In this document: in pieces, positions 16,701 to 64,000 of the stretch | Layout: each line of letters opens with the position of its first letter | How positions within the stretch are numbered: position 1 is the stretch's first letter | Source: Tribonema minus | Taxonomy: Eukaryota > Sar > Xanthophyceae > Tribonematales > Tribonemataceae | Assembly (NCBI GenBank): GCA_017506865.1 | Contig: JAFCMP010000516.1 | Coordinates: 722,795-786,794 of the forward strand | DNA length: 64,000 bases | Direction: 5' to 3' | The notes under the pieces: generated by a model | Seen by the model: the letters and a program-made list of their open reading frames with translations, nothing else | What the model was told of the DNA's origin: nothing | Database searches by the model: none | Position numbers and translations under genes: made by a program

Positions 16701-17284
16701 CTGTGCTCGCCACCCCGGCGATGGACAGTGTCATAGCTAAATGACTCATCCGAGTACTGGTGTTGCTGTAGAGCAGCGATGCTGTCTGACGCACAGCTGC
16801 TGCTCAGACTCCAGCTGTCGTAGACGCCCTCGCCATCGAGCTCCTCTAGGGCAGGCAGCAACGCCAGCACCTTTCCAGAGTATCTCGGGTCCAGGGACAG
16901 GGGATTACCCACCAGATGCAGTGCCCTGAGCTTTGATAATGCTTGAAGGTGCGCAACTTGAGCCACATCGCCTATGCTGTTGTGTGCGAGGTTCAGACTT
17001 TCGAGCTGAGTGAATGATCCCGGGTGGCTGAATACAGCCAGGCTTTCGATGCAGTTGCCGCTGAGATCCAAGGATTGCAGCGCTGCAAGCCGCTGCAAGC
17101 CTTCCAGTGATCCTGGCTGACTCGTGAGGCCATTAAGAGACAGGTCGAGCTGGCACAGCAGCGGTAGCGCCTCCAGGTTTTCCACAGTTTGAATGTGGTT
17201 GCTACTCAGATTGAGCTTGCGTACCTGGCCGTAGCCTTTGATGATATCTTGCACTAGCTGCGCCGTGATGCCCGTTATCGGCAT
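7702..17284 (-). CDS. LRR / coiled-coil protein, candidate VFL1/LRRCC1-like basal-body protein
   Basis: Exons I can phase: 17284-16669, 16467-14396, 13470-13286, 12644-12378, 11980-(about 11925), 10175-9968, 9578-9161 and 8478-7702 (TGA 7704-7702). Small exons between 11925 and 10176 are unresolved (coding-looking patches at about 11780-11725 and 10350-10260). The N-terminus starts MPITGITAQLVQDIIKGYGQ and holds about five leucine-rich repeats at residues 21-126, ending in an LRR-cap-like NPLSLDPRYSGKVLALLPAL. Exon 2 encodes about 690 mostly disordered Ala/Pro/Gln-rich residues. The later exons form long alpha-helical coiled coil with E/A/R/L heptads, then a disordered acidic tail. LRR-cap followed by coiled coil is the layout of Chlamydomonas VFL1 and vertebrate LRRCC1, centriole/basal-body proteins, so a centrosomal role is inferred from architecture only. 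CEP97-type or other LRR-coil proteins are alternatives. The exon phases fit wherever both borders were found. Confidence 0.7.
8964..9199 (-). repeat. Three tandem copies of an exon tail plus 5' splice site
   Basis: The last 39 bases of the coiled-coil exon (9199-9161, 13 codons) recur at 9103-9065 and 9002-8964 inside the following intron. Each copy is followed by a GTGYGC donor, a CTTGAAGTT-rich stretch and a CCCTAA-like motif. The period is 96-101 bases. No AG directly precedes copies 2 and 3, so they look like donor decoys rather than ready exons. Confidence 0.88.
9004..9025 (-). repeat. Telomere-like CCCTAA motif at a duplication junction
   Basis: The minus strand reads as CCCTAA units (two perfect, one slipped) exactly between duplicated exon-tail units 2 and 3. 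A weaker TTAGAGTTAGGG version sits at the matching place between units 1 and 2, at about 9106-9118. Confidence 0.6.
14143..14176 (+). repeat. Short interstitial telomere-like CCCTAA array
   Basis: CCCTAA-type units (ACCCTACCCCTAACCCTAAC and following bases) lie in the second intron of the LRR/coiled-coil gene. The array is too short to be a true telomere remnant on its own, but the same word recurs near 3434, 9010, 32400 and 39975. Confidence 0.6.
14738..14812 (-). repeat. Coding tandem repeat encoding PGGGSTGM units
   Basis: Three 24-base units in exon 2 of the LRR/coiled-coil gene encode (M)PGGGSTG repeats. The repeat is in frame and in a disordered region, so it is length-variable material without predicted structural effect. 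Confidence 0.85.
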
Positions 17285-25846: not shown

Positions 25847-28800
25847 ATGTGGTACTCAGGGAGAGCGACGGCGAGTGGCGCGGATCCCGTCGACCAGCCT
25901 CCGCTTCGGAGACGAAACACTGGCTCGAAGCAGACAGCTGGACTGGCGCTGGATAGCTTGTTGCACTTTCGGCCAACGCATACTAGCGTGGAGGACAACA
26001 TGAGAGAAGCGCTGCACATGCTGGATATACTGCCTCCAGATCAGCGAAAGGTGAGCCTGATAGCATCACTTTTTCGCAATGGAGCTGAACAAAGCAGGTC
26101 CTCTAGAGAATGCGCAATTGCTAGCATGCTTAGCAGAAACGCTATAGGTAGCTCCTGCAGTCCAGCTGTGTGCAGCACTGTAGTGTCTTTGCTGCACGCC
26201 CAATATGGTTTAGGCGAGAAAAATCCTTCTTGAGCGCGATCAGCACCAAATGCTTTATGTTGGTGCTGCTACTTCAGTGATTCGCAGATCTGCGCCGCCA
26301 ATGCGAGCGATGTTGCTTGCTCGTGATGTTGCAGTTGTCGGCTGTCTATAATGGCGTATGTGTCAACTGCATGATCAGTCTAACGTACGTACCATTGTCG
26401 ACTCTCCTGGGCAATGAGCGTTTTACGTATGTGCTAAATTCCCAGACTTCAAGTTCTGTTCTGGGTACTAAAGTACAGGAAGCAGAAAGCATACATCCAT
26501 GTGCCTCTGGTTGTGCACAGCTTTCATCATGGTACCCTCCACAAATCATGAGCCATGTTTGTGGGAAAATGCTGCCTGCAGGGCACCGCCATATTTCACC
26601 ACACAACAATGCTGTTTCACTGCCAGAGTCGCCAGGCATGGCAGAACAGCACTTGCAGTGTAGGAGCTGTGTGTGCAGCCCAGGTATTGGCATGTATGAA
26701 ATGCAGACATTCATACAAAGTGTTCTGGAAGAGAACGGCAGCGCGCGCACCGTCTCCAAATGCGCTGTTATTGCGCGCTTTTGAAGTTCCTGAGGCGTGC
26801 AAAGGCTTGCCGCTGCATCACCACCTTCACTCAGCCGACCAAACTTCCACTTGTAAACGTGCGCAGCCACTTGAGATTGGAAGCATCACCTGTACTTCTA
26901 TCAGACTCACTGTACTCTGCTACATATGCATCCGATGTCTTTGCAGGTTCAGTGTGTGGATGAATGTGAGGCTTATGGAGCTGCCCCTCATGCGCATACT
27001 CAAGTGCGCAAAGTCATACCAGCTGAACCTCCTGTCTGCTCACAGCACAGCGCTCAACACAACGTTGTGCTCCGCCTTCAATGATGCTGCTGTTCACATG
27101 CATCACACCTCTCATCACGCACACCGCACTCTACTCTTCCATAATGCTGCTGCTCACATGCATTACACCTCTCATCACGCACACCGCGCTCTTCTCTTCC
27201 ACTTGTGCGAGCGCAGGGCTTCATGCAGCTCTTCAGTGCGCACTGCCAAACGCGCAGCTGCCCCGCCATAGTTCCCGCAAAGGTCCAACACCCCCCGCCA
27301 GAGATGCTCATCAACCTCGAGGACATACCCGAATGCCCGGGGGACCAGGCTCTCAGGCATGAGCTCCTGGATAAAGTCGTTATATTGAAACTGAACGGGG
27401 GGTTGGGGACGAGCATGGGGTGCAAGTTTCCGAAGAGCGCAATTGAAGTTCGGAGCGACTTGAGCTTTCTGGACCTGACGGTGCGGCAGGTCGAGTACCT
27501 CAACTCCATGTACGGGGTTGACGTGCCACTGGTGCTCATGAACTCGTTCAAGACGCACGAGACCACGGCCAAGATCATACGCAAGTACCGCATGCACAAC
27601 CTGACGATACACACCTTCATGCAGAGCTGCTACCCGCGCGTTATCAAGGTGAGCGCTGCTGCTATATCATCATCTAGTGCATTGCTGGTATTTGCATGTG
27701 ACGTATTGCCTTGTAGATTGTACTCTGTGCCTGCAAAACGATGGATGATGCAGCTTGCAGAGCACATGCGCATACTGCAATCCAACAATTGCCATGTTCA
27801 ACTGCAATTTTGCTGTGTGTGGTACGACAGCTTCAACTTCAACCAGAATGTGGCTTGTCCTGAGCCGCCACACAACATCCGGATTGCGCCACGGTCGTGG
27901 TGCCTGAACAATGCTGGCCTGTGCCCGCATTACTTCAACAACGGTGCGGTACGCAACTTGAAGTTCACACGCACCTCTGCTTTCCGTGCAGGACACTCTG
28001 CAACCGATGCCAGCGGGGTCATTCTCGCAGGAGTCCCAGGAGGAGTGGTACCCACCAGGGCACGGCGATGTGTACCAGACGCTGTACTCCAGTGGACTGC
28101 TGGAGAACTTGATAAACCAGGGGAAGGAGTACGTGTTCATCAGCAACGTGGACAACCTGGGGGCGACCATTGATCTGCGGCTGCTGTATCACGTGGTGGA
28201 TAGCGAGGCGGACTTTGCGCTGGAGGTGGTGCAGAGCACGCGCGCAGACAATGAGGGGGGGCTGCTTGTGGGGTAAGCACCAAGAATCCGCCTGTAAATA
28301 TAACTTCAACTTCTAGTTTTAGGGAGGGAGTGAACCCAGCGCCTTCCTTTTGCTCTGGAGGTGGCGCAGAGCACGCTCGCGGACAATGAAAGGGGCCTGC
28401 TAGTGGGGTAAGCACCACATATGGCCAGTAAGCATAACTGCGATTTGTAGTATTGGCGAGTGAGTGAACCCAGCACCTCTCTTTCGCTAATGTATTGTGT
28501 GCTGGAGGTGGTGCAGAGCATGCGTGCGGACAATGAAAGGGGCCTGTTAGTGGGGTAAGCATCAGTCGTGCACTCTTAAGACTATTATCCAAGTGTCAAG
28601 TGCAATAAATTCAGCGACGGTCTGTAATATCAGGCGTAGGACGGGCCAATAACGAGTCGTCGCGCGTGCGGACAATGAGGGGGGCTTGCTAGTGGGGTAA
28701 GCACCAAGTACGCGCCAGTAAACATAAGTTTAACTTTTGGTTTCATGAGTGCATGAACCCAGCACCTTCCTCTCATGTAGCGTCAGATGATAGTGCGAGC

Positions 28801-49525: not shown

Positions 49526-51321
49526 TCATCGCTGCTGCTGCTGCGGCGGCTGCTGTTGCGGCGGCGACTGCAGCTGCTGCGCCTGGTGCGCCTTCCGCCC
49601 CTCCTCCACACAGCGCTGCAGCACCTTCTTGAGCTCCGCATTTGTGTTGTCCAGCTGCACACCCTCCCACGCCGACACCGCCGCCTCCTCCCACATGCCC
49701 AGCGCCTCGCGCGCTATGGCCATCCTGTAGCACGCCTTCGGCCAATCCGGCTTGAGCCTGCGCGCCACCTCCGCATCTGCCAGCGCCGCCGCGGCATCGC
49801 CCAGCGCCATGTGCACCGCACTGCGGTTGCTCCAGTACACGTGGTTATTAGCGTCGAGCTCCACAGCGCGTGTGTACGCCGCCAGGGCCTCCGCCAGCCG
49901 CGGCGGCGCCGCTGCGAACGCCGCATTGCCCTCCGTTTTCGTCGCCTCCGCCGCACGCTTTGCCTCCGTGCTGGCCTCCGGAAAGCGCGTCGGTTTGAGC
50001 GCTGCTGCCTCCGCGCGCGCCGCCTCCCGCTCCTGCGCTTCCGCAGCCTCCACGTGCTCCCTGTGCCTTTGCAGGCCCGCCGCCATGAGCTCCTCGACAG
50101 TTTCGCCGCTGCCGCCGCCGCCGCTGTTGCTGGTGGTGACGGGATGGAGCTTCTCCACGAGTGCGCGGTGTCTGCCCATGGCGGCGAGGTCGATGGGGCG
50201 CATACCCGCGTCGTTGCGCAGCGCCGCGCACTTGCGCCCCACGTCCGTCGCCAGCAGCGCATCTACCGCTGCCGCGCTGCCGAGATCCGCGCAGATGTGC
50301 AGCACTGTCAGTCCGCCGCTCATGACGAGACCCACGTCGGCGCCTGCACTCGCGAGCAGAGCTACCGTCGCGCCGTGCCCGCCCGCCGCCGCCATGATGA
50401 TGGGGGTGATGCCCTGCTTGTTGTGCGCGTCGCGATTTGCGCCTAGCGCGAGCAGTTCCTTGACAACCCCTTCGTGGCCCTCCCCCGCTGCCCAGTGAAG
50501 GGGGGCACCCGCGCCACTCTGCACCTCCAAATCAGCGCCGTGTTTGGCCAGCAGCTTGACGGATTGAAAGTCGCCGTGGCCTGCGGCTCTGTGAAGGGGA
50601 GTCACCCCTTCGGTGTCGGCTTTGTTGGGATCCGCACCGGACTCTAGCAGTCGGCCGGCGATGCTAGAGTGGCCGGTGATGAGAGAGAGGGCTAAGGCTG
50701 TGAGCCCTTTTTCGTCTGCGACATCGACGATGGCTGGTGCTCTGCCGTCCTGAAGCATCCATTCCACAGCATCTGCCTTGCCGGCAGTGCAGGCGAAGTG
50801 CAGCGCTGTCCTTCCGTTGCCGTCTTTGATGCTGAGAAGCACCTGCGCCGAGGCAAGCACACGTAAGGTACATGCACGTGACCCCAAACAATTGGCAAAC
50901 ACCAATGTGCATAATGGTCACTGTGATAAAAAGTGCTTACCCACAGCGCTCTGGAAGTAAGGCACACGACAGGTGTGATTGAAGATAACATACGGGAGGA
51001 GAAAGCGTTTGTGTTTCTTTTCCTGTTTTTGCAATCCTTCAGGTGCTGTACTAACAGAAAGGAGATGCAACTGATGCTGCTGTGAAGCCACTAAACAAAA
51101 TTGCAGCCTTATTGTTGTGTCAATCATGTTAGAAGCTTGTAACTCACATCTTGCGGCGTAATGGGAGCTCCAGGCTCGTGGTGCTCGTGCACATAGTCTT
51201 CCACGAAAGTCTTCAGTTGATCGATGTCTCCGTTTTGTGCGAAGCCCAGAAAACGCTGCACTTCCTTCCTCACAGCCTGCGCTGCATCTACCTTGTCATG
51301 GCGATCTACAATCTCCGCCAT
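49526..51321 (-). CDS. Ankyrin-repeat / TPR protein, Hsp90-Hsp70 co-chaperone type
   Basis: Exon 1 is 51321-51148 (MAEIVDRHDKVDAAQAVRKE...) and exon 2 is 50842-49526 (TGA). They join in phase 0 with GTGAGT and GCGCAG, giving 496 residues. Residues 66-292 contain six or seven ankyrin repeats (GRTALHFACTAGKADAVEWM; VTPLHRAAGHGDFQSVKLL; APLHWAAGEGHEGVVKELL). An Ala/Glu-rich helical linker follows, then three TPRs at about 353-467. The dicarboxylate-clamp residues are in place: K360 and N364 (KTEGN), N397 (YWSNRS), K427 and R431 (KACYR). These bind the C-terminal EEVD of Hsp70/Hsp90. A Gln/Pro tail ends the protein. The same architecture occurs in the plant ankyrin-TPR protein group that includes Arabidopsis TPR10, so a cytosolic chaperone-adaptor role is inferred. 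Confidence 0.9.
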
Positions 51322-51415: not shown

Positions 51416-51924
51416 CCGTATTACAAATCTATAATTAAGCCCATAAGCCCATGGGGCGAGTTTTTTATGAGAGCGAAAAAAGGGGGGTGGGGCGCCATTA
51501 ATATTTGGGGGAAAAAAGGGTGGGGTGGGGTGCATTAATGTTTGAGCCATTTTAGCTCATTCAACACTATCATGAGGTGCCAGCATGCTTGTACGCCGCT
51601 CCTGACACCAGTTCAACGTTCAGAAAGCCAGCTGCTGCCTCCTGGAGCCTTTTTGTGGGTTTGGCTTCATTGTTAGGTGTCTTTCTGTCAGCTCTGCACG
51701 TTGCTGACAGTGCATGCATGCGTACACACAATGTGGTGTTGTAGGATGAGTCACTGAGTGTGCATAGTACACGTATGCAGAGGGCACATGCTGCGTATGC
51801 ATGTAAGAATAAGGGGGGGGGGGGCACATTTATATGAGCGAAAATTAAGGGTGGGGCGTCATTTTATGAGGGCTCGGAAACTCATAAAAAACTCGCCCCA
51901 TGGGCTTAATTATAGATAATACGG
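51416..51924. mobile_element. Non-autonomous inverted-repeat transposon (MITE-like), TA-flanked
   Basis: The ends are inverted: CCGTATTA-x-TCTATAATTAAGCCCA...GGGGCGAGTTTTTTATGAG reads inward from 51416 on the + strand and from 51924 on the - strand, about 55 bases each side with small gaps (the left arm has an extra AAGCCCAT). TA dinucleotides flank both ends (51414-51415 and 51925-51926), as expected for Tc1/mariner-superfamily insertions. The 509-base element has no transposase frame. The interior holds GGGGTGGGGCGYCATT-like sub-repeats on both sides. Confidence 0.8.
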
Positions 51925-51926
51925 TA

Positions 51927-52885
51927 TTTGGAGATTCAAGTGTTGTTTTTTGACAACAGAGACATCAAAGGACTGCTGCACAGTTGAAGGCCTTGCGGCG
52001 GCCGCACCATGCATAGGCATGCGGCGAGAAAGGCCCTGGTGGGGATTGAGCACATCTTGTTTAAACGGAACTTCACTGCTGACTTCAACTTCAACAGTCT
52101 GCCCATAGTCGGCTTCTGCTAAGCAGAAATACACCATCAATGCTGCGAACTTGGTGAGCAGTAGCGGAGGCGGTGATGCTGCGGGCGTCAAATTCACCCT
52201 TGGCTGCAGATTGAACTCGACAATCATGTCCGCAGCAAACGCCTCCCGACACATCCCCGCACAGGCAAGTCTCATGTGCACTTGTAAGCACACTGCGGGT
52301 TGTCGAGGTGCAATGGCTACCCAAACCATACTGACAGTGTGTAGCTTGCTTCCACTCCTTGCTACCTTTTTGATTTTGCCAACACGCCTTGTGTGGACAC
52401 CGAGGGTGGGGTGGTGCTACTGGCAGAGTGCGCCCTTTGTGCAAGCGTCATTATGCGCTTCACCCCCTACTGAAGTGGCTTACCTTGTGATGCTGTCATG
52501 AATGCAAACAAGCAAGCTGGAAGAGCAAAACAAGTAGACACGCTTCAGAGAACTCAAATGAAATGTTATGCGAAAGGAAACGCGATACGCTTACCGGATA
52601 TTTTATTCTGCTGCTGAGAGACGGAAGGCTTGGGGCTGGACGATGGCTGGCACAGCAAGGTTCGGGCTTGCTGCTTGCAGGGGGGGTTCTGATGCTGTGC
52701 ATGCTACTTTGATGTGCCCTTTGGCATGTGACCCAACTAGTTGCACCTGCCTTCAACTAAGGTCAGGCCAGCTCTCAATCACATGTCAAGGTCTACACCG
52801 ACTACACAGGTCTACTGAGACCTGTGCCAACCTGTGAGGTGTAACTGCCTGTAACTGTCTGAATACACCCCCAAGCCGTATCAGA
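51927..52885. other. Interval to the left of the retrotransposon; likely includes its 3' LTR
   Basis: Contains paired GACTTCAACTTCAAC words (52080-52095) and no gene. If the polypurine tract at 52887-52900 is genuine, the 3' LTR of the minus-strand retrotransposon starts near 52886 and runs leftwards with TGATACGGCTTGGGGG. Its outer end cannot be fixed because the matching 5' LTR is not in the window. Confidence 0.35.
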
Positions 52886-52901
52886 TCCCCCTTCTTTGCT
52901 G
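52886..52901 (-). other. Candidate polypurine tract
   Basis: The minus strand reads GCAAAGAAGGGGGATC directly before TGATACGG, a purine tract followed by TG as at the start of an LTR. It lies about 220 bases beyond the last Pol stop. A second GCAAAGAAGGGGG copy occurs in the leader at about 63380-63392. Confidence 0.45.
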
Positions 52902-53106: not shown

Positions 53107-56100
53107 TCAACTTGAGTCCCCACAACTACTTCGCACTCTCCTCTGAGGATATACTGCGAGCGGCGAGCACGTTCCATGATGAGTATGGGTTGTCTTTTGG
53201 CGTGCGGTAGTCACCCGGACGTAAGCGCATACGCCTGACAGTCTTCTCACCGTCGAATAGTACATCAAACGTGAACTGCGACCTGGCGGGGTAAAACTCA
53301 CCCAGGACGCCGCGGCTCCAGCCTGTTGGAAGTGATACCAGATCACTTCACCCTCAAAGTCTGATCCGAAATCAGATGACAGTTTGGGCAGCCTTACCAG
53401 CGAGATCTGCGGCCGAGCAGAATCTTGGGCTGAGCTTGCCTCAGAACTAGTTTGGGAAGATGGCAGACCTCGCGTGACCTGAGAGTTGGGACTTGCACTA
53501 CTCGCGCTGTCCGGCGCGCTTTGCGCCTGCAACCTCTTGGCTTTGTCACGCACTGCCTCCGCCAACTGTATGGCAGACTTGACCTGTGTACGGGTCATCT
53601 GTTCCCATTCACCATCCTCATATCTGATCCTCCAGTATGGTGACACAAAGTTCTTAACGGCCCCCCACACGTAAGTGATCGGGCCGCCCACTACCGTTCT
53701 GTGCTCCCTGACCAGCGCCGTGCCGATGGGATAGAGTTGCAGCGCGCTCTCTCGGCGCATGCCAGCATCCTCCTTAGGTGTGGGCCTGATGGCATATGCC
53801 GGCAACCTTCCTTCGTTGCGCAGCTCATAGAGCGCGTGAAAAGCGTCTAAGGTCCATGGCGTCACTTCTTGCAGCATGTCATCCTCTGAAACCCACGCAT
53901 GTGACTTGCCATCTATGGACTGCCATTTGTACTGCCACGAGCCATTGGGGCCCGCTTGGCGGTCCAGAACTCTGTATAACTTCTCACCATCTGCTAGCTC
54001 CTCCACTTGTCGGGGGCTCAGCATGGCGTGCACACCTGGCTCCAACATGGCACTAGGCCTCATGTGGAAGGGCTTCATGTTCTCAACATGAGCTGTGGTG
54101 TGTCTAACTCTTCTGCCCATCATCCTGCAGATGAATGAGAGGCCTGATTCGCCTGTGCGAGCCTCGATCTGCCAAGGCCCCACATACCTGGCATCAAGAG
54201 CAGCCGACCTGTCTCTTTGCCTGGGTAGCCGTATCATGACATAGTCACCGACGGCGAACTTCACCGCGCGCTTAATAGCTTCATTGCGCTTGGTGATCTT
54301 CTGGGCGCGCACTTGCAGCGCCTTTGACACCACTTTGTCTGCAAGCTCAAGCATATCTAACTTGTGCTCAATCTCTTCGTGTAGGTCCAACTTCCTGCTG
54401 CCATCCTCGTGCATAAATGCATCATGTGGCAGTGAAGCTTCCCGACCGTACACACAGAAAAAGGGTGTTAAACCTGTTTCACCTCTGGGCGTTGTCCTCA
54501 GCACGAACTGCACAAGCTCTAAGCCCTCGTGCCAGTTGGTCTGTTGAGCGCTGACCCAGGATGCTAGTGCCTTCTTGGCACGACCATTTGCGTGCTCCGC
54601 CACACCATTGGTCTGGGGGTGGTAGGCACTGGTTTCTATGCGTTTCACTTTGAACGCTTTGCAAAGGTCTGTGACCACATTGCCTAGGAAGACCTTGCCC
54701 TTGTCAGAGCACAGCTCCTCCACTAGCGCGCCAATCTCAAGGAACACTGTCATGAGGTGCGGGGTAACATCGCGCGTTCCCTGGCCGTGCATGGCCGAGA
54801 GCCACACGAAGCCGGACCTTGCTTCCACTATGGTCAGGACATATCTGTGCCCTGCCGTGGACTGTATACCAGGCTCTGTGATATCTATATTGAGCCGCTG
54901 CCACATACGCACGGGCTCAGCTAACCACTGTCTGTACTGAGTGGAGCTGGCGCGTTTGCGCTCGAGGCATGTCATGCAGCTCTGCACGTACGTTCGTATG
55001 TCCGCGCCCATACCAGGCCAGAAATACCTCTCGAATATACGCGTGTGCGTAGCGCCTATGCCGCAATGCATAGCGCTTGCGTCATCATGCCCTAGACGCA
55101 TGACTAGGGTTCGTAGCACCACTGGCACGACCCACTGCAACAACACCATACCTCTCTTGGGGTGGCTCGTTGAACTGTGCACTAAGAGGCCATCTTCCTC
55201 GATGGTATACTGCTCTCTCTGTGCTAAGACGTGAGCGGCTAGCTCCGCGCCTTCGGGTATGTCACCCTCAATGAGCATCTTGCTCACTGCTTGACAGAAA
55301 CCGTCCGCTTTCTGAACTTCAAGAAATGCGGCTCTGCTGAGCATTGCTGGCGTGGCAGGCGAGTCTCCCTCGGCCACCCGTTTCAGCAACTGCACTACTT
55401 CTGGCCTTGGCAGCGTCTTCTTGCGCTTGCCTAAAACAGCTTCGCCATCCGGTGGCTCGTCTGCCTCATCTGCATCAGCAGCAGCTTCTACCTCTGGAAT
55501 CTCTCCTTCTTCCAATGAGTCTGCCGCCGGCTGAGCCGTGGTGACGCTGCACTTGGCCCTCTTTGAGCTGATGCTGCGTCGCCTGTCGCATGCGATCTGC
55601 CTTAAGAGTCGCTGCGCTTGGGAATGCTCCCACGAGCCGGTGTACTTATTGACTGGCTCTGCATACGCTGTGTTGATCTCAACTTCATCAACCTCAGCTT
55701 CCTCCACCGTGGAGTCATCTAGCCTTCTGTCCAACAACTGTGCTAGCTCCACAGCTGTCAGAGCGGCTAACCTAGCGGCCACCGCGCCTGATATGGCGAC
55801 GGCCTCGTTGAACTTGAACGCTGGCCCGTAACGTGCGTCCGCCGTGTACCCACGACAGCTGTTCACGTCGGCCACCTTGTGCGTTCTCGTGGCCTCGTCC
55901 GCAAAGCGCACACCTGACGGCGGTGCGTCCATGCTCGGGACTGCGTCTGGCCACTGTTCGTCTGCTGGCTCCGTAGAGCGCTCAGCATCTAACTCTGCCT
56001 GCTGTGGCAGCCTGGATGGGGCATCAGCATTGGCATTCCTTTTGCCAGGCCTGTGCTGAATGGTAACGTCATACTCCTGTATGCGCATGGCCCATCTTAG

Positions 56101-59100
56101 TAGCTTGCCGTTGTAGTCTTGCAACGTCAACAGCCACCTGAGCGCAGCGGCATCTGTGACCACTGTAACGGGGTTACCCCAAATGTAAGGCCTGAAGTGG
56201 TTGAGCGCCAGCACTACTGCCAGACACTCTACTGCCGTCGCTCCTAACTTCGCGTCGGGTTCAGAGTTCAGCTTGCTGAAGTAGCCAACGACTACTTCTC
56301 TGACCTCCTCGCCTTCAGCTATGCGGCGCCTGCCCGTGTGAGCATATGGCTGTCCCGCTGTTGCCCTTTCGACCTCACTCACAGGTCTGAATTGTGTAAG
56401 CACACCTGCCGTCGCCGTCTTGGAGGCGTCGGTGTACAATACGAAAGGCAGACTGAAATCTGGGTGCATCACTATGCGACTGTCGCACATGGCACTCTTC
56501 AGCCGCTTGAAAGCCCGCTCTTGCGCAGACCCCCAAACCATGACTGCTTTGTTCTTGGTCAGGGCTACTATAGGCTCTGATATCGCCCCAAAGTCGGGTA
56601 CATATCGCCTGTAATAGTTAAACACTCCCATAACCACTTGTACCAACTGCTTGTCGGGTACCCCGCCTTTCAGTGGGGGGCTCATGTCAAGCATGGCCTT
56701 GACCTTGTCAGGGTCTGGTCTTGTTCCAGCGGCGCCAACTATATGGCCTAGGAACTTGACTTCAGCTTGAAATAGCTGACACTTTGGGCGAGATACACTC
56801 ATGCCCGCCGCCCCTATGCGGCCAAGAACATCATCTAACTGCTCGATGTGCTCCTCGATGTCCGTGCCATACACCAACACGTCATCTATGTACACTAGCG
56901 CGTGGGAGCCTAAGGCATCTCCCAGCACTTGGTGCATCAATCTCGTGAACTGCGCTGGCAAGTTCACTAGCCCGAATGGCGCCACCTTGTAGTGCCACAA
57001 CGAGCCGTCTGGGGCTCTGAAGGCCGTCTTGGCCTTAGCCGTCTTGGCCAGCGGGATCTGATGGTAACCCGCTGCCAGATCTAACGAAGATAAAATCCTC
57101 GCACCTTGCACAGCCCGCATCATGTCATCCATGTTGCCTAAGCCATGACTATCACGCTTTGTGACCGCATTCAACTTCCTGAAGTCTATGCAGAAGCGGA
57201 TCTTGTCGCCTTGAACCACTAGTACTGGGTTGCTTGCCCATGCACTAGCTGATGGCTCAATCTGTTGGCGCTTTGCCATCATCTGAATCTGTTTCATGAT
57301 GTACTCGGCTTCTTTGAAAGCCCAATGGCGTGCCTTGTCCGCCACCGGCTCGGCCGTCTGAGTGTCAACATCAATCTCAAAATGCTGAGTGACTCGAGGG
57401 TTTTTAGGGTCCTTAGCAAAGACATTCCTGTGCTTTTTTAGCATGTCAAGTGCTTTTGTTTTTAAAAGTACCCCATCTTTCCCCCTTCCTTGCAAATGAG
57501 GCGCAAGCCTGCCATCTTTCACAAGGATTTCCTCCAGCTCTGCATCCGTGCAGTTTTCTAGCTGGTCATTGTGGCGCTGGCTAAGGTCTGCCAGCCGTTG
57601 CACTTCTTGTGCAACCTCTTTGGCAGTCTTGCCTATGCTAGCAGCTAATTCTGCCACTAACTTAGCATTTTCAGAGTGCCTTTTGGCCGCTATTACTAGC
57701 AGTTTGGCTTCTAGAGCCTGCTGAGTAGCTGTCTGCACTTCTAGCAGATCATCAGCCTTAATTGGAGTCACTTTTCCCCAATACGTGTTGCGGCGCACGT
57801 AAATCAGGTACATTGAAGTGTTGCTCAATGTAGCGTATATCGTGCCGCTGGCATTTACAGTGAGAGCGGTGATATTTGCCTTAACACCTTTGCCTCTCAT
57901 CATTTCTGTAGTCACTGTCTCTTCTGGTATGAGCAATGCCTCATAGGGCTGCACGCGCTTTGGCTTTGGTAGCAGCGTGAGTTCCACAATCGTCTCCGAC
58001 GATGGTGCCAGTACAGTGTTATATGCCATCCTAGCTGAGCACTGCTGAGGCTTGTCTGGTGCCTCAGTGCTCTCAGCGCTGCCATTGCCCTTGCAACTGG
58101 CTAGTGCTGCCGCATGCGCGTTCGCGTTGTCTGCGCGATTCTTGTCGTGCATGGGGCGTATGGCCACACCTTTTAGTCCCCCTGGGAAGAAGGCTGGGCT
58201 ACCGCCGTGATACGAGATGACTGAGCCATGCGGGGCAAAGAAATCCGTACCTAAGAGCACGTCCATGGGTGCGTTCACCACATAGAACTTGTGCAAGAAC
58301 ATCTTGTTATTAAACCGCAGCCATGCATTGACCACACCACTGATCTGCAGCGACGTCTTGCCGTCTGCCAAGAGGATCTCAGTGTAGTCACCTTGCTGAG
58401 GTGTACATACATAGCTGTTGGGGAGCTTGTCTGCAATGCGCTTGCCCATGATGGTTACGGTCGCACCGCAGTCTACCATGGCGCGCACATAGAGTTCTTT
58501 GGGCGTCTGAGAGTTGCTTTGTACGCGTAACGACGCGGACACAAACATCTGCCCTGGAGGTACAACACCGGCTACTGGGCGTATGTACTCCACTGGAGCC
58601 TCCGACTTGGAGCGCTCTACCGAGCTAGGCTCAGGGGACCCTACTGCAAGGCCTACATGAGGTAACTTGACTGGTTCCCTCTGTTTTGTGATCTCTTCTG
58701 TGAGATTCTTAATTGTCTCTGCCACACTCACTGGTGGGGCTGTGTCTAACTTGCTGACACCTGGCACATGGTCTAATATGCCTAGAGACTGAGCATCAAG
58801 GCCAGCGCGCCTGAGCGCTGCCTTCAACTCACCTGGGGCAAGGCGCGGGTCTGTACCGCCGCCGAGCTTCTTGCGTGCCGCTGCGGCCGCAATGGGTGGA
58901 GCACTGATTTCTGTGTCAATGTCCATGTCGTCTGCGCTACTGCAAACGCTCATAACTGACTGTGAGTCCCACTCAGAGTCAGACCCTGAGTCAGAGTCAT
59001 CGACTTCCACGATGTCAGCCATGCCGGGCTGCACCACAGCCAAGTCTACCTCTGGCTCTTCCCATGCACTGCGCATCGGAATTATGGGTACCTCTGCATA

Positions 59101-60828
59101 CCCTGCATGATGCGCCTTTGCATGTATGCTACGCGCCACTGCTGCTGAGCAGTGTGCACTTGACGAGGGCGCTGCGTGTACCGCGGTAGCGGCCTGCACC
59201 AGCGAACCACTCTGACCAGCCAACCAAGACGGGGGCGGGCAGTCAACTGAATGCCTCAACGTAGAGTCTGACCTACGCGGCAAACGTACCTGTTGTTCTG
59301 GCAGTGTGCACAGGCCTGAGGCCTCAATTGCCACGAACAAGTGAAATGCCATCTCTGGGATGAACAAGTCTGCAATGTAACGCCGTACATCACTACTGCA
59401 TGCACTCGCTGGTAATTCATGATAATACGTCATGAGCACTGCCATTTCCGCAAGCGACAGCAAGCGGGCAGATGCCACTGGACCAGCGTCTTTTGCATGT
59501 GCAACATAACTCGCAGTGGGCCTACCAGGCAGTCTGCGCACTGGGCTAGGCAACAAGCCATCAGCATCCAAAACACCAGGGTGCTGAGCACTGCATGGTT
59601 GCAAGAAGAATGTGCGTTCGGGGCAGCGCAAGCGAGAGCGAACAGATGTGGGTCTGCTTTGTAAACGCTTGGTATTTATTACCGCACCGAACCTCTGGAG
59701 TGCCTCACGTGAGGCCACCCCTGCTGGTACTATGACAATGTACACTCTCTGCCTCCTGCAAGGTACTTCAAACTCAGAAGCCTTTAACTTGGCAATGTAC
59801 AGCATGTAACCAGCAGCCTTAAGAATGCGCACTGCGCGTGCAAACGCGCGTGACACTAGCACTCCGGGCACATTCTCGTACAACACCACTTGAAGCTTGG
59901 CTCGCACGATGAGCCGTGCGGCATGAACCGTGCACTCGGCAGCTTCGCCCTCGACCCTCTTGCCCTCCGCAGAAAAATCTGTGCAGGGCGGCGAGATGGT
60001 GGTGACGTCAGGTTTCTCGTCGATGAGACGTGCAACAACCTTCGCATCAGTCATGCATGCAGTCATTGTGGGCACTTCTGGATGAACTTCATTCAGAGCC
60101 TCAATTGCCTTGACATTCTTGTCAACTGCAAGCACTGTGCGTGTTACAAAACCTGCTCTAGAGGTCAACTTACCCCCAGCTATGGCGCCTCCTAGCGCCC
60201 CACAGCAGATAGACGCGTGTTTGATAACTCTGGGTGGTGGCTCTGGCCCACCCTCAATTGCCGCCATCTGTGCGCGCAAAGAGACATCGTAAACAGCGTC
60301 AGTGGCATGCTCAGCTACCTGTGCTGAACATGCATCTGCTCTAACTACACCAGGCAATTCACTGATTGCTGATGCTGAACTTGCAGCAGGCAAGTCACTT
60401 CCTACCAAGGCAGCAGACAACTGCAAGTGTGATTCACCTTGGCGGTGCTTTTCTGCCATCCTCTTTCGGTGCGCAATGCACTGAGGGCAGGTAGTCTTGT
60501 GCCGCATAAGTGTGTCCCAGTCTCCCTGGTTCACTCTGCAGCCAAGACACTTGAAGTTGCTCTGGGGCTTGGCTCCGCCGCCGCCATTATCGCCTGCGGA
60601 GCTAGCCTTGCCCTGCGGCGCGCGGTCGCTGACTCCAAGCTGGCGACGCTCGTTAGCGCTCAGCCCCGCCAACACAGCGCGAACAGCCGAAAGCTTATTC
60701 TTCTTTTTATAGCGATGGTCGTTACTGACCACGCTCCACCCATCCTTGGCAGGGCGCTTGCCTGTGTCAGAGTAGGGGGGGGTTGAGATGTGTGCCGCGG
60801 CCATTGCAGACACAACATTTCGAGTCAA
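53107..60828 (-). CDS. Pol polyprotein: zinc finger, C5-DNA methyltransferase, PR, RT, RH, IN, chromodomain, Tudor-like
   Basis: One open frame of 2573 residues. Zinc finger: C94, C97, H110, C114, C117. C5-methyltransferase at about 203-505: motif I SICCGALGGAIAG, motif IV PPC with catalytic C282, ENV at 318-320 (motif VI), CRRQRVYIVIV at 357-367 (motif VIII), RLLSLAEMAVLM at 455-466 and an end helix near 489-503 (motifs IX-X). Protease: VDCGATVTIM with D786, and DVLLGTDFF. Reverse transcriptase at about 1150-1400, YIDD at 1313-1316. RNase H: D1467, E1534, D1559. Integrase: H1914, H1921, C1951, C1954 and the triad D1982, D2042, E2078. GPW motif near 2217, chromodomain-like 2274-2320, Tudor-like 2366-2420. 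The last about 75 residues are probably out of frame: the next frame (to TAG 53126) reads LPTGWSRGVLGEFY and FDVLFDGEKTVRRM, a better domain. The N-terminus lies one base forward of the Gag frame. Confidence 0.92.
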   Translation of the reverse strand: MTRNVVSAMAAAHISTPPYSDTGKRPAKDGWSVVSNDHRYKKKNKLSAVRAVLAGLSANERRQLGVSDRAPQGKASSAGDNGGGGAKPQSNFKCLGCRVNQGDWDTLMRHKTTCPQCIAHRKRMAEKHRQGESHLQLSAALVGSDLPAASSASAISELPGVVRADACSAQVAEHATDAVYDVSLRAQMAAIEGGPEPPPRVIKHASICCGALGGAIAGGKLTSRAGFVTRTVLAVDKNVKAIEALNEVHPEVPTMTACMTDAKVVARLIDEKPDVTTISPPCTDFSAEGKRVEGEAAECTVHAARLIVRAKLQVVLYENVPGVLVSRAFARAVRILKAAGYMLYIAKLKASEFEVPCRRQRVYIVIVPAGVASREALQRFGAVINTKRLQSRPTSVRSRLRCPERTFFLQPCSAQHPGVLDADGLLPSPVRRLPGRPTASYVAHAKDAGPVASARLLSLAEMAVLMTYYHELPASACSSDVRRYIADLFIPEMAFHLFVAIEASGLCTLPEQQVRLPRRSDSTLRHSVDCPPPSWLAGQSGSLVQAATAVHAAPSSSAHCSAAVARSIHAKAHHAGYAEVPIIPMRSAWEEPEVDLAVVQPGMADIVEVDDSDSGSDSEWDSQSVMSVCSSADDMDIDTEISAPPIAAAAARKKLGGGTDPRLAPGELKAALRRAGLDAQSLGILDHVPGVSKLDTAPPVSVAETIKNLTEEITKQREPVKLPHVGLAVGSPEPSSVERSKSEAPVEYIRPVAGVVPPGQMFVSASLRVQSNSQTPKELYVRAMVDCGATVTIMGKRIADKLPNSYVCTPQQGDYTEILLADGKTSLQISGVVNAWLRFNNKMFLHKFYVVNAPMDVLLGTDFFAPHGSVISYHGGSPAFFPGGLKGVAIRPMHDKNRADNANAHAAALASCKGNGSAESTEAPDKPQQCSARMAYNTVLAPSSETIVELTLLPKPKRVQPYEALLIPEETVTTEMMRGKGVKANITALTVNASGTIYATLSNTSMYLIYVRRNTYWGKVTPIKADDLLEVQTATQQALEAKLLVIAAKRHSENAKLVAELAASIGKTAKEVAQEVQRLADLSQRHNDQLENCTDAELEEILVKDGRLAPHLQGRGKDGVLLKTKALDMLKKHRNVFAKDPKNPRVTQHFEIDVDTQTAEPVADKARHWAFKEAEYIMKQIQMMAKRQQIEPSASAWASNPVLVVQGDKIRFCIDFRKLNAVTKRDSHGLGNMDDMMRAVQGARILSSLDLAAGYHQIPLAKTAKAKTAFRAPDGSLWHYKVAPFGLVNLPAQFTRLMHQVLGDALGSHALVYIDDVLVYGTDIEEHIEQLDDVLGRIGAAGMSVSRPKCQLFQAEVKFLGHIVGAAGTRPDPDKVKAMLDMSPPLKGGVPDKQLVQVVMGVFNYYRRYVPDFGAISEPIVALTKNKAVMVWGSAQERAFKRLKSAMCDSRIVMHPDFSLPFVLYTDASKTATAGVLTQFRPVSEVERATAGQPYAHTGRRRIAEGEEVREVVVGYFSKLNSEPDAKLGATAVECLAVVLALNHFRPYIWGNPVTVVTDAAALRWLLTLQDYNGKLLRWAMRIQEYDVTIQHRPGKRNANADAPSRLPQQAELDAERSTEPADEQWPDAVPSMDAPPSGVRFADEATRTHKVADVNSCRGYTADARYGPAFKFNEAVAISGAVAARLAALTAVELAQLLDRRLDDSTVEEAEVDEVEINTAYAEPVNKYTGSWEHSQAQRLLRQIACDRRRSISSKRAKCSVTTAQPAADSLEEGEIPEVEAAADADEADEPPDGEAVLGKRKKTLPRPEVVQLLKRVAEGDSPATPAMLSRAAFLEVQKADGFCQAVSKMLIEGDIPEGAELAAHVLAQREQYTIEEDGLLVHSSTSHPKRGMVLLQWVVPVVLRTLVMRLGHDDASAMHCGIGATHTRIFERYFWPGMGADIRTYVQSCMTCLERKRASSTQYRQWLAEPVRMWQRLNIDITEPGIQSTAGHRYVLTIVEARSGFVWLSAMHGQGTRDVTPHLMTVFLEIGALVEELCSDKGKVFLGNVVTDLCKAFKVKRIETSAYHPQTNGVAEHANGRAKKALASWVSAQQTNWHEGLELVQFVLRTTPRGETGLTPFFCVYGREASLPHDAFMHEDGSRKLDLHEEIEHKLDMLELADKVVSKALQVRAQKITKRNEAIKRAVKFAVGDYVMIRLPRQRDRSAALDARYVGPWQIEARTGESGLSFICRMMGRRVRHTTAHVENMKPFHMRPSAMLEPGVHAMLSPRQVEELADGEKLYRVLDRQAGPNGSWQYKWQSIDGKSHAWVSEDDMLQEVTPWTLDAFHALYELRNEGRLPAYAIRPTPKEDAGMRRESALQLYPIGTALVREHRTVVGGPITYVWGAVKNFVSPYWRIRYEDGEWEQMTRTQVKSAIQLAEAVRDKAKRLQAQSAPDSASSASPNSQVTRGLPSSQTSSEASSAQDSARPQISLVRLPKLSSDFGSDFEGEVIWYHFQQAGAAASWVSFTPPGRSSRLMYYSTVRRLSGVCAYVRVTTARQKTTHTHHGTCSPLAVYPQRRVRSSCGDSS
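59314..60222 (-). other. C5-cytosine DNA methyltransferase domain within Pol
   Basis: Pol residues 203-505. This part of Pol supplies SAM binding (motif I), the PPC nucleophile (C282), ENV (glutamate for cytosine protonation) and the R-Q-R-x-Y motif VIII, in canonical linear order. The spacing I to IV (about 70 residues), IV to VI (about 36) and VI to VIII (about 40) is normal for this fold. The stretch from 368 to 454 would be the target-recognition region. Nothing in the active-site motifs looks broken, so catalytic competence is plausible but unproven. Confidence 0.88.
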
Positions 60829-63133
60829 TAGGCGCTGCCTGCCACTTTTGCTGGGCAGTTGCCACGACCTTGGGAAAAGCGGTGTTCTTTAGATCCCAGG
60901 TCTCATACATGCCGTTTACTTCTTGACGGCAGCATAATGGCAGTTCATGAACGAACTTCATACGAACAATTTGCTGGTTGTCCGCGCAGCCGGCGTCGTG
61001 CGCGGCTGCAACTACCTCCCTGCCCCACACTTCGGGGCTGGTACCGGAGGTACGCGCGAGTTCATGATACTTTTGAAGTGCTATTTGCCTGGCAGATGTG
61101 CTATCGTACGCTGCCGTAAGGCATTGCACCATCTGCTCATAAGACAAATCACTAAACGCACGAGTTTCTAGCATTCCCGTGCGCTCATTGGTGACTGCGC
61201 TGGTCAGATCAGCGTACTGACTCTTGGTCAGACTCTGCAACAGCGCTTCTGAGTAGGCCGACTTGGGCACGCCACGCGTGTCGCAGCTACGCTCAAAAGC
61301 TCTAATGGAAGCTTCAAGCCTGCCTACTTGCGTTACAATGACGACGCCAGTGCCGCCGAAACCCCTCAAGTCAACTTTGGGTTTCCGCACCGTCATGGCA
61401 ACTGAGGAGTACGAGGGTTCTACTGCCCCCGAAGTCCTAATGCTCTCACCTAGAGCCGATGCGCTGGTGGCTACGCCGGCCACTGCGCCATCTTCACGCG
61501 GACTCGCAGCTGCGCCGGCTGCGTCTTCGTCCGACGTGTCGGAGTGCCCGTCAGTGTTGAGGAACGGGTGCGTCACCAGGCTGCGCGGGTAAGTGTCCGC
61601 AGCTAGGCGCGCCTCCTCGGTGACCAGAGGCGTGTTCTCGAACTCCCTTAGCATTCGCCAGAGTTCCGCCTCCTCACCGTCGCCTGTGCCGAAGGCGAAG
61701 CGATGCCAACTATTGGACCGCTTACGGTGTTCACCTATGGTCAGCAGCTCGCCGAACTGGCTAGCTTTGAAGTCATGACCACGTTTTTCCAGAAGTGCAA
61801 CATTATGCTTGCGCACCTCTTCGGCCTGCTCCGCAGCGAACGTCCGCGCCATCGGCAGCAGTGAGTTCTTCACCATGTTCTTGCTCTCACTAGGAGCTCT
61901 GGTGACGCGAAGCTGGAGCTCGCCAAGGCGTTCGTAAAGGGCACGCTCGTGAATTTCGGCGAACGTTGCAGCCGTTTTGGCGGCCTTGGCAGCTCGCTTA
62001 TGTGCCTCGACGCGAGCTTCGATGCCCTCACGCCACTGGTCATAAGCCTCATCTGTGCCCTCAGGATCAAAGGGCACACCACCCTCATCACCAGATGACT
62101 CAGAAGACTCGAGCAGTTGCCTAACTGCCCTCCGTCGCTCTGCCGCTTGTTGCTCAACTGGCTTTCGCGGTATGACGGGCGCGCTACGTGGCACAACTGG
62201 CGCACTTTGCACGACTGGCACGCTACGTGGCACAACTGGCACACGCCGCGCCTTACCACTTGCACCCCGACGCGGCTGCGTCACAGGCGATTTATCTGAG
62301 GCTTCAGGGGCCCTCGCTGGTGCAGTATAGTATGTGGGAGCCACTAGCCTAGCTGACGGCTTGGAGCTCTGAGGCGTCGGAGCCGCCGGTGCTACTTCAG
62401 GCGCCGCAACTGGGACCCGTGCACCGCGCGTAACCGACGTCTTGGCCGGCTGACTGCGCGCGACCTTAGGTGGGGCCACCGCGGGCGCAACCAGTGCTGC
62501 AACTGGCACTGTGGACTTTGCAGGTGCTGGCGCCGCAGACTTCGCGGGCGCTGCCGGCACAGCTGGCGCGGCTACCGGCACAACTGGCGCGGTTGTTGCA
62601 GCTGCACGCGGTGTCTTGCGTGGGCTTTTCGTTGGTGCGAGTTTTTTCTCAACAGCTGCACGTGCAAAAGCTTCTTCGCCTTCTGCTACCTGGGCTTCGC
62701 TAAGCATAATGCCCATTGCTGCAAGCTGTTCTCTTTTCTGCCTCAAACGTAACTGCCTTGCCACTATGGCTTCGGCTTCTGAGCCGCCACCGCCGGGCTC
62801 GTCGCTGGACTCAGCGAAATTACGTATAAAAGGAGGTGCGGCACCAGTGACTACTGATTCTGTGGACCGTACCGAGGCAGACGTGTCGGGCGCGCTGGCA
62901 CCGACCTGGCTGGGTTTGCGGACGCTGCCGCGGGCCGGGGAGGGGGGCTGACGGCTTGTCACCCGAGCTTGGTGCGGGGCGCGTAGCGGAGCGCTGACCG
63001 CCCTTGTTGCCCTTAGCAGCAGTGCTGCCAGCAGGCCTAGCACCGCCACTAACACCTCCGCTGCGGCTTGACCCACTCGTTGGCTTCTTGGAGCCATGGT
63101 CAGTCTTGACCATTTATGGTGTATCCTGCACAC
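60767..63133 (-). CDS. Gag-like protein of the retrotransposon
   Basis: The open frame spans 63133-60767. Its first codon is not ATG. Residues 100-330 are Ala/Pro/Val-rich and basic. Residues 340-770 are helical and capsid-like, with VDLRGFGGTGVVIVTQVGRL, SEALLQSLTKSQYADL and YEQMVQCLTAAYDS, typical of Ty3/gypsy capsid. The C-terminus is a short CCVC-x4-TH cysteine knuckle (CCVCNGRGTH) just before the stop. The true start is probably ATG 63113-63111 in the neighbouring frame (MVKTDHGSKKPTSGSS...), which reads as a normal basic N-terminus up to a C6 run at 62947-62942. After that run the main frame takes over, so a second one-base slip is suspected. Gag packages the element RNA into cytoplasmic particles. 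Confidence 0.8.
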   Translation of the reverse strand: MCRIHHKWSRLTMAPRSQRVGQAAAEVLVAVLGLLAALLLRATRAVSAPLRAPHQARVTSRQPPSPARGSVRKPSQVGASAPDTSASVRSTESVVTGAAPPFIRNFAESSDEPGGGGSEAEAIVARQLRLRQKREQLAAMGIMLSEAQVAEGEEAFARAAVEKKLAPTKSPRKTPRAAATTAPVVPVAAPAVPAAPAKSAAPAPAKSTVPVAALVAPAVAPPKVARSQPAKTSVTRGARVPVAAPEVAPAAPTPQSSKPSARLVAPTYYTAPARAPEASDKSPVTQPRRGASGKARRVPVVPRSVPVVQSAPVVPRSAPVIPRKPVEQQAAERRRAVRQLLESSESSGDEGGVPFDPEGTDEAYDQWREGIEARVEAHKRAAKAAKTAATFAEIHERALYERLGELQLRVTRAPSESKNMVKNSLLPMARTFAAEQAEEVRKHNVALLEKRGHDFKASQFGELLTIGEHRKRSNSWHRFAFGTGDGEEAELWRMLREFENTPLVTEEARLAADTYPRSLVTHPFLNTDGHSDTSDEDAAGAAASPREDGAVAGVATSASALGESIRTSGAVEPSYSSVAMTVRKPKVDLRGFGGTGVVIVTQVGRLEASIRAFERSCDTRGVPKSAYSEALLQSLTKSQYADLTSAVTNERTGMLETRAFSDLSYEQMVQCLTAAYDSTSARQIALQKYHELARTSGTSPEVWGREVVAAAHDAGCADNQQIVRMKFVHELPLCCRQEVNGMYETWDLKNTAFPKVVATAQQKWQAAPIDSKCCVCNGRGTHLNPPLL
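60775..60782 (-). other. C8 run at the Gag-Pol overlap: frameshift site or homopolymer error
   Basis: Gag ends at TGA 60769-60767 just after a run of eight C on the coding strand, and Pol is open through the same bases one nucleotide ahead. Shifting on this run would join Gag to Pol. This may be programmed frameshifting, or a one-base length error in a homopolymer that hides a single Gag-Pol frame. Confidence 0.5.
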
Positions 63134-64000
63134 GATTCACGCGCATGAAGCTGAGTGCGACGACAAAACCATGATTTTTAATTGTCAGCGCACGAGCCGT
63201 CTATGCCCCGCACGCCTCTGCACGAGGTCTGATGCTACTAGGGCACTCTGAACTGCAAGCCAGCCAGTTTGACATAGCAGTTGTACAGATCGACCGCGTT
63301 GTCAATTCTGCAACACAATTGCGGCCGTACAATCATGAAGCAAAATTGCATCGCTTTGCTCTAAAGCTAGACTCCTCTCCCCCTTCTTTGCAAAAAGCTA
63401 GTCATATCAGCTTTAGAGCAAATTACTAAGGAAGAGCATGCGGTAGGGTTTTTATTCTAGTCATAGGCAACCGTTACAGCCAGAAAAGTGGCAGCGCATG
63501 CCCCTTTGTGCGCTTATTCTCGAGACTTCTCGAGTGCAACCACTTAACACTGTCTATGACAAGTCACTACCGTTTCTGTGACTTCTGATACACAAGCTAT
63601 CACGTGTCCCCCCTAAAGGATCTCCGCGCGTTCTCCCGGAGACTCTGGTGCGTTCGTGACGTGATAGTGTACGGCGCGCAAGCTGGTGTACACAGCGCGC
63701 TACCGCACGGGTCTACCCTCGATGTCCTATATGGGTCCACGTGACCACGTTCATCAACCACAGATGAGCCGCAGAATAAGGCCAGCTAAATGAAGTTGCA
63801 TGTTCATTGCTGCTCAGACCCGTGCAGCACGCACTGCGTCGTTGACATCAAGGGGGCGGGTCACGACGTAGCGGTGCACCACTACGCCGCCCCGTCATAA
63901 GCATTCTAGTGCAGGAACCTAGCGTGATTAACGTTTTAAACTCGCTTCCACGGCTGTTCTTTACGTATTGCTTTACGTAATCTGGGTCCTCGAAGGCTTT
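63134..64000 (-). other. 5' untranslated leader of the retrotransposon
   Basis: No open frame of note upstream of Gag. The leader contains strong inverted repeats (63355-63422; and TATCACGT/ACGTGATA at about 63598-63667), compatible with structured packaging RNA. No stretch matches the putative 3' LTR at about 52.4-52.9 kb, so the 5' LTR and primer-binding site lie beyond 64000 or diverge beyond recognition. Confidence 0.5.
63355..63422. repeat. 14-bp perfect inverted repeat (hairpin) in the leader
   Basis: TTTGCTCTAAAGCT (63355-63368) and AGCTTTAGAGCAAA (63409-63422) are exact reverse complements around a 40-base loop. The loop carries the minus-strand purine tract GCAAAGAAGGGGG. Confidence 0.85.

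Follow-up and report, generated by a model that had tools for sequence, protein, structure and literature searches.

A C5-cytosine methyltransferase domain in the Pol frame of Ty3/Gypsy-type retrotransposons of Tribonema minus

Introduction

DNA methylation is a standard weapon of hosts against transposons, and a genomic parasite that itself encodes this weapon presents a paradox, described in 2018, to which the literature we found offers no resolution. The question is raised anew by a 64,000-nucleotide stretch of the Tribonema minus genome (GenBank assembly GCA_017506865.1, contig JAFCMP010000516.1, positions 722,795 to 786,794 of the forward strand; hereafter the window), in which a Ty3/Gypsy-type long terminal repeat (LTR) retrotransposon appears to carry a C5-cytosine DNA methyltransferase (DNMT) within its Pol frame. 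An earlier note, made from the letters of the window, had drawn attention to this arrangement. Here we ask what the domain is, whether it belongs to the element, how widely it occurs in the genome and what it may do. The observation was confirmed, and it proved to be larger than the note had stated.

Results

The domain and its frame

In the Gag-Pol of the window copy, the methyltransferase follows the Gag zinc-knuckle region and precedes the protease. Pfam matches follow one another along Pol, from the N to the C terminus, in the order DNA_methylase, aspartic protease, RVT_1, RNase H, integrase zinc domain and integrase core, which bears out the claim that the enzyme shares a frame with protease, reverse transcriptase (RT), RNase H and integrase. 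Two of these matches, to the protease and the integrase core, fall short of their curated cut-offs; the others exceed theirs. The features concerned are (window coordinates):

53107..60828, (-), Pol open frame, 2573 amino acids from a TTG within an open frame of 2593 amino acids
59293..60231, (-), C5-cytosine DNA methyltransferase domain, pol residues 200-512
59983..59985, (-), codon of the motif IV (PPC) catalytic cysteine, pol residue 282
59869..59877, (-), motif VI, ENV, pol residues 318-320
59746..59754, (-), motif VIII, R-x-R, pol residues 359-361

The profile search that the earlier note had suggested came out in its favor, with a DNA_methylase match over the curated cut-off (E 7.3e-17) at pol residues 218-365 (59734-60177), and motifs I, IV, VI and VIII are all present together with the fold. 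The motif IV cysteine (alignment column C83) is invariant in alignment A4 and missing in alignment A6 only in L094, a locus of group E below; residues E119 and N120 of motif VI and R160 and R162 of motif VIII are invariant in alignment A6. A fold search with a structural model of the domain returned the C5-methyltransferase fold, the nearest structures being the DNA enzymes M.HhaI and M.HaeIII. By motifs and fold the domain is a C5-cytosine methyltransferase, and it may be catalytically active.

Copies and selection

Searching the genome (158.18 Mb in 554 contigs) with pol residues 1-526 gave 84 matches. Counted by eye, 31 of these (the window copy is one) cover residues 199-495 with an identity of at least 95%; a stop interrupts one of the 31. 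The copy count proposed in the earlier note was in this way carried out genome-wide. The methyltransferase domain is without gap or stop in 28 of the 29 other copies examined, a set biased to intact copies because these 29 and the window are the 30 best-scoring rows.

Pooled over the set of at least 95% identity, in which pairs are not independent and some short contigs may be redundant, the ratio of nonsynonymous to synonymous differences (pN/pS) was 0.189 for the methyltransferase (26 copies plus the window) and likewise 0.189 for the protease, where few codons vary (6 nonsynonymous, 3 synonymous only). It was 0.296 in the stretch preceding the methyltransferase (residues 60-198) and 0.689 in the linker that follows. 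For four diverged pairs within groups A, B and C (defined below), the ratio of nonsynonymous to synonymous divergence (dN/dS) was 0.18, 0.20, 0.07 and 0.23, at a synonymous divergence (dS) of 0.4-1.7 that is partly saturated. These data show that the methyltransferase belongs to the element and is maintained by purifying selection.

Synonymous diversity among the copies of at least 95% identity (L012-L038) is 0.0586 in the methyltransferase (pol residues 200-508) versus 0.0089 in the following linker (510-770), a contrast that suggests recombination between subfamilies.

Further element groups

At least five element groups in the genome bear the domain, in two domain orders:

Group A (window, L046, L047, L093, L006): domain between Gag zinc region and protease
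Group B (L048, L050, L052, L053): domain between Gag zinc region and protease; motif IV SSC or APC
Group D (L092): domain between Gag zinc region and protease; motif IV TLC
Group C (L049, L051, L008, L007, L005): domain downstream of the protease and, in loci long enough to show it, upstream of RT
Group E (L094, L095): order as in group C

Within group E, the L095 domain scored 37.5 bits in Pfam and has STRC as motif IV, and that of L094 scored 22.4 bits alone (cut-off 22) and 15.8 within its frame. RT identity is 32% between groups A and C and 35% between C and E. With a group B domain as query, 105 of 129 rows were uninterrupted (at least 285 of 311 residues, no stop), comprising 45 from group B and 60 from group A at 33-36% identity; with a group C domain, 47 of 125 rows were uninterrupted (at least 300 of 332 residues, no stop). 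Counted by eye, an uninterrupted domain is thus found in at least 152 places, groups D and E uncounted, a lower bound because only the best candidates were scored, in which short contigs may be redundant. A DNMT-free Gypsy outgroup was sought at four places (on C117, C201, C33 and C15), and all four carry the domain. The earlier note had envisaged a further capture or a wider distribution; the part that stands is that the domain occurs outside the two lineages of the 2018 report (PMC5890265), and the part that does not is a single capture in one element, given at least five groups and two orders.

Origin of the enzyme

Profile comparisons over nearly the full length of the domain related group A to group B (E 2e-50) and to group C (E 3e-26). 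When a profile of ten element domains was searched, DNMT2 chains scored highest, at 72-82 bits, and HaeIII, DNMT1 and HhaI chains reached up to 56 bits. No chain named Dnmt3 was among the 55 listed up to E 10 in that search, which had no positive control, or among the 50 rows that each of the fold searches displayed, and neither result excludes Dnmt3. Motif IV of the element reads PPCTDFS, versus PPCQPYTR in a host gene exon (L004, C523:358815-359333) that we take to be of the DNMT2 type; the DNMT2-type motif IV is absent from the window domain. The genome's three best PF00145 matches are free C5-methyltransferase-like frames of 367-390 amino acids (L001 and L002 on C223, L003 on C181), with 15-21% identity to the element enzymes.

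Quick trees without bootstrap were built, with no Dnmt1, 3, 5 or 6 rows; the second and third omit twelve rows that were long or gappy, including the host DNMT2-type exon. In the first tree, of 96 rows, groups A, B and D joined metagenome protein P0001 (support 100) and group C joined P0003 (support 99); A/B/D and C were not joined to each other, both lying inside a 30-row set with 15 phage rows (support 85). In the tree minus 12 rows, A/B/D and C formed one branch against 70 others (SH-aLRT 97); an approximately unbiased (AU) test did not reject an arrangement with A/B/D held with the eight nearest phage-side rows (p 0.466). In the tree with group E added, all element enzymes formed one branch at 93.6, which is not significant by the tool's mark, and A/B/D joined E at 98.7; the alternatives of A/B/D with C and of C with E were not rejected (p 0.404 and 0.417). 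The simplest reading, though not one that is shown, would be that the enzyme was captured once, long ago, and later changed its place in Pol. Metagenome proteins were matched by the window domain alone (2) and by the ten-member profile (48); P0001 and P0003, which join the elements in the trees, are among the latter. No polyprotein-sized relative scored, and no RT similarity was found in 33 viral-contig loci.

The remainder of the element and its surroundings

The hallmarks of an LTR retrotransposon were all found, namely TG...CA LTRs, a primer-binding site, a polypurine tract and a short target duplication (the primer site and the duplication from the copy on C34). On the basis of domain order and Pfam matches, we place the element as a Ty3/Gypsy-type LTR retrotransposon. 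Its other features in the window are:

58237..58488, (-), aspartic protease, pol residues 781-864; PF13975, E 1.7e-4, below the curated cut-off
56737..57207, (-), reverse transcriptase, pol residues 1208-1364; PF00078, E 9.7e-27
56071..56460, (-), RNase H, pol residues 1457-1586; PF17917, E 5.5e-22
54616..55128, (-), integrase, zinc-binding (pol residues 1901-1959; PF17921, E 1.3e-16) and core (1977-2071; PF00665, E 1.6e-5, below cut-off)
60767..63133, (-), Gag-like frame, 788 amino acids, with a CCHC-like end, overlapping Pol by 62 bases at a C run
52884..52897, (-), polypurine tract by sequence, adjoining the 3' LTR, present also in the C34 and C64 copies
52471..52883, (-), 3' LTR, 413 bp, TGATACGG...CTTCA, 98.8% identical to the 5' LTRs of the C64 and C34 copies
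63134..64000, (-), 5' untranslated leader, 98.8% identical to the leader of the C64 copy

A Pfam search with the Gag-like frame gave no match, so the label "Gag" rests on its position and zinc-knuckle-like end. Five other copies at 98% identity (on C34, C537, C89, C218 and C64) have single frames of 3306-3376 amino acids, approximately enough for Gag plus Pol, and the Gag/Pol split in the window copy may be either real or a homopolymer reading error. Because the contig (C513) ends at 786794, which is window position 64000, the 5' LTR of the window copy lies off the contig; the LTR, polypurine tract and primer site were recognized by comparing the termini of two further copies. In the C34 copy we observed a primer site of the tRNA type, TGGCACCCGAAG. 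Between the two LTRs of this copy there is no difference in 403 compared positions, and a 4-bp CAGG duplication flanks them; together these indicate recent integration.

The C-terminal tail of Pol after the integrase (53110-54531, (-)) gave two weak matches that miss the cut-off, one to SH3_Tf2-1 (E 0.032) and one Tudor-like (E 0.033). Telomere-type repeats in this genome are TTAGGG, and the 3' LTR of copy L042 (C64:353300-354606) is interrupted by a TTAGGG array that runs to the contig end, so that this copy seems to be telomeric. Downstream of the window element lies a perfect 28-bp inverted repeat (51444-51471 / 51881-51908). Ordinary host-type genes in the window encode an ankyrin-repeat protein (49526-50905, (-)), a piece of UTP-glucose-1-phosphate uridylyltransferase (27205-28173, (+)) and a leucine-rich-repeat protein (16604-17284, (-)).

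Host lineage

The earlier note had considered a chlorophyte host, which the sequences contradict. Fragments of plastid rbcL lie in two nuclear contigs (L054 on C334, L055 on C112), and the one scored against Rubisco chains gave 97-98 bits with 6ftl, 5mz2, 5oya and 1bwv, presumably diatom and red-algal enzymes, versus 55-59 bits with 1gk8, 1ir1 and 1ej7, which we take to be those of Chlamydomonas, spinach and tobacco. Two antenna proteins match ACP- and FCP-type chains (ACPI/CAC and FCP). In the search with the first protein, four multi-repeat LHCI chains of 9vfj rank highest, with single repeats that reach at most 28.6 bits in the two alignments shown; among single-domain matches, ACPI and CAC chains score best, at 114 bits. 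The rbcL fragment and the antenna proteins do not fit a chlorophyte and point to a host with a red-type plastid; on these sequences alone, the guess would have been a haptophyte or an alga like it.

Discussion

What might a retrotransposon gain from such an enzyme? Most likely, the methyltransferase would travel in the particle, processed from Pol or attached to it, and would methylate cytosines of the element's own new double-stranded complementary DNA (cDNA), such that a new copy would enter the genome already bearing the mark of the host. This mark could let the DNA pass as self or, alternatively, could damp expression of the new copy, sparing host and element alike. Self-methylation is the reading nearest to the published analogue, the Dnmt3 domains of the dinoflagellate SymbioDIRS elements, which methylated CG de novo in yeast (PMC5890265). 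We judge methylation of element cDNA by the Pol-borne enzyme to be evenly poised between true and false, and we offer self-methylation or camouflage as a hypothesis.

Several observations weigh against it. The observed/expected CpG ratio is 0.81 in the element versus 0.75 in window positions 1-52000, and thus CpG is not depleted. CpG transitions between copies are in 3.2-fold excess over all sites, but at fourfold-degenerate sites 12 of 48 in CpG context vary versus 14 of 88 others, with the excess on the G side only; as the all-site excess is not clearly upheld at fourfold sites, we dropped CpG decay as proof of methylation. Motif X canonically contains GN, which is missing from the corresponding IADLFIPEMA of the window domain, although the motif X helix is present in the model; in group C the motif reads ANAV. 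The prolines of motif IV are gone in groups B and D, and in L094 (on C33; domain at positions 1751-2623 of the locus) an in-frame loss of 25 residues removes the catalytic loop together with its cysteine. Finally, the available text of PMC5890265 names the SymbioDIRS enzymes as active in yeast and does not so name the Gypsy enzyme of Klebsormidium nitens.

The L094 loss bears on the strongest rival, which we consider unlikely but serious: that the domain chiefly serves to bind DNA or RNA in the particle or the pre-integration complex, with catalysis playing little part and methylation being dispensable. The loss is common to L094, L096 (C292) and L097 (C214), which we term group E2; in all three copies inspected the domain is identical and the frame open over 3452-3455 amino acids, and RT matches of near-equal score are spread over many contigs. 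It seems, then, that a lineage of elements can multiply with the catalytic loop gone, and it may do so with the enzyme of partners or with the fold alone. Group E1 (L095, L098 and L099) retains the loop in 3 of 3 copies inspected, and between E1 and E2 the domain has a dN/dS of 0.145 at a dS of 1.45, a ratio that averages both branches and is therefore no proof of constraint after the loss. The variable motif IV prolines of groups B and D point in the same direction. Against dispensability, PPCTD is retained in 28 of 28 copies of the window's own group and PPC in every aligned group A and C domain, and E2 may borrow the enzyme of another element in trans. With intact, altered and deleted versions of the loop side by side in the same genome, it could be tested whether the methyl mark is needed or only the fold. 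Tentatively, and with rather less confidence than we place in self-methylation, we suggest that in this algal lineage a whole radiation of Gypsy elements has the methyltransferase as a regular part of Pol. A single enzyme would have been captured, inherited by element groups that split deeply or handed from one to another, shifted to the other side of the protease and, in one amplified branch, deprived of its catalytic loop; the fold itself, not methylation alone, would serve the element.

RNA methylation in the manner of DNMT2, with the primer tRNA or genomic RNA as target, is a distinctly improbable account; it would fit the preference of the element profile for DNMT2 chains and the tRNA-type primer site. 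Slightly less probable still is that the enzyme works in trans, with the host genome as its target or else competitors such as viral DNA and other elements. The uninterrupted domains counted above could amount to a large dose, and an antiviral role has been proposed in an opinion paper (PMC6338049), but the enzyme would need release from the particle. A chimeric assembly has next to no probability, and the same holds for a host gene mistakenly read as one with a retroelement, for although the window copy lies at a contig end, the same methyltransferase-Pol frame recurs in many copies on other contigs and the domain has relatives in other groups, so that the copies refute a chimera by the very comparison that the earlier note had proposed.

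Comparison with known systems

Retrotransposons with a methyltransferase were already known. The one primary report found in the literature searched is that of de Mendoza et al. in 2018 (PMC5890265), which cites two earlier sightings; a survey (PMC12344493) repeats the finding, gives streptophytes and dinoflagellates as the hosts of retrotransposon DNMT3, treats the SymbioLINE enzymes as orphans and calls the LTR case Copia. In PMC9998398, DNMT3 is described as seemingly absent from the haptophytes studied. No DNMT-bearing retrotransposon from a red-plastid alga outside dinoflagellates was found in the literature searched, which lay mostly outside subscription journals and preprints. What is new is the lineage of the host, the apparent type of enzyme, the occurrence of the domain on either side of the protease and a branch whose catalytic loop is missing. 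A red-plastid alga joins the known hosts, several of its Gypsy groups carry the enzyme, and the profile and fold searches listed no Dnmt3 chain for it.

M.HhaI, M.HaeIII and the phage C5 methyltransferases (phrog_116, phrog_363) share the fold and motif order, but are free enzymes with 16-18% identity in structural alignments. The methylase-bearing Sola transposon of Ectocarpus (PMC12477816) is likewise a mobile element with a DNA-modifying enzyme; it is, however, a DNA transposon, and its predicted N4/N6 methylase is accompanied by a ParB-like domain. SymbioLINE-Dnmt of Symbiodinium (PMC5890265) resembles our element in having a retroelement methyltransferase outside the standard eukaryotic families, whereas it is a LINE with the enzyme in a separate upstream open reading frame and with CpG depleted. 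In SymbioDIRS-Dnmt3, from the same host and report, the methyltransferase lies in Pol beside RT, and two domain orders occur within one genome, as here; it differs as a DIRS element with a tyrosine recombinase and a Dnmt3 enzyme, in place of integrase, protease and LTRs. KnitGypsy-Dnmt3 of K. nitens (PMC5890265) is also Gypsy-type; its Pol frame includes a C5 methyltransferase, and like our element it has several copies and is under purifying selection. Its enzyme is Dnmt3-related, whereas our profile search lists no Dnmt3 chain, which is not decisive; its repeats are arranged as in DIRS elements, whereas ours are ordinary LTRs; and its host is a charophyte of the green lineage, whereas in T. 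minus several groups with two coexisting domain orders inhabit a host with a red-type plastid.
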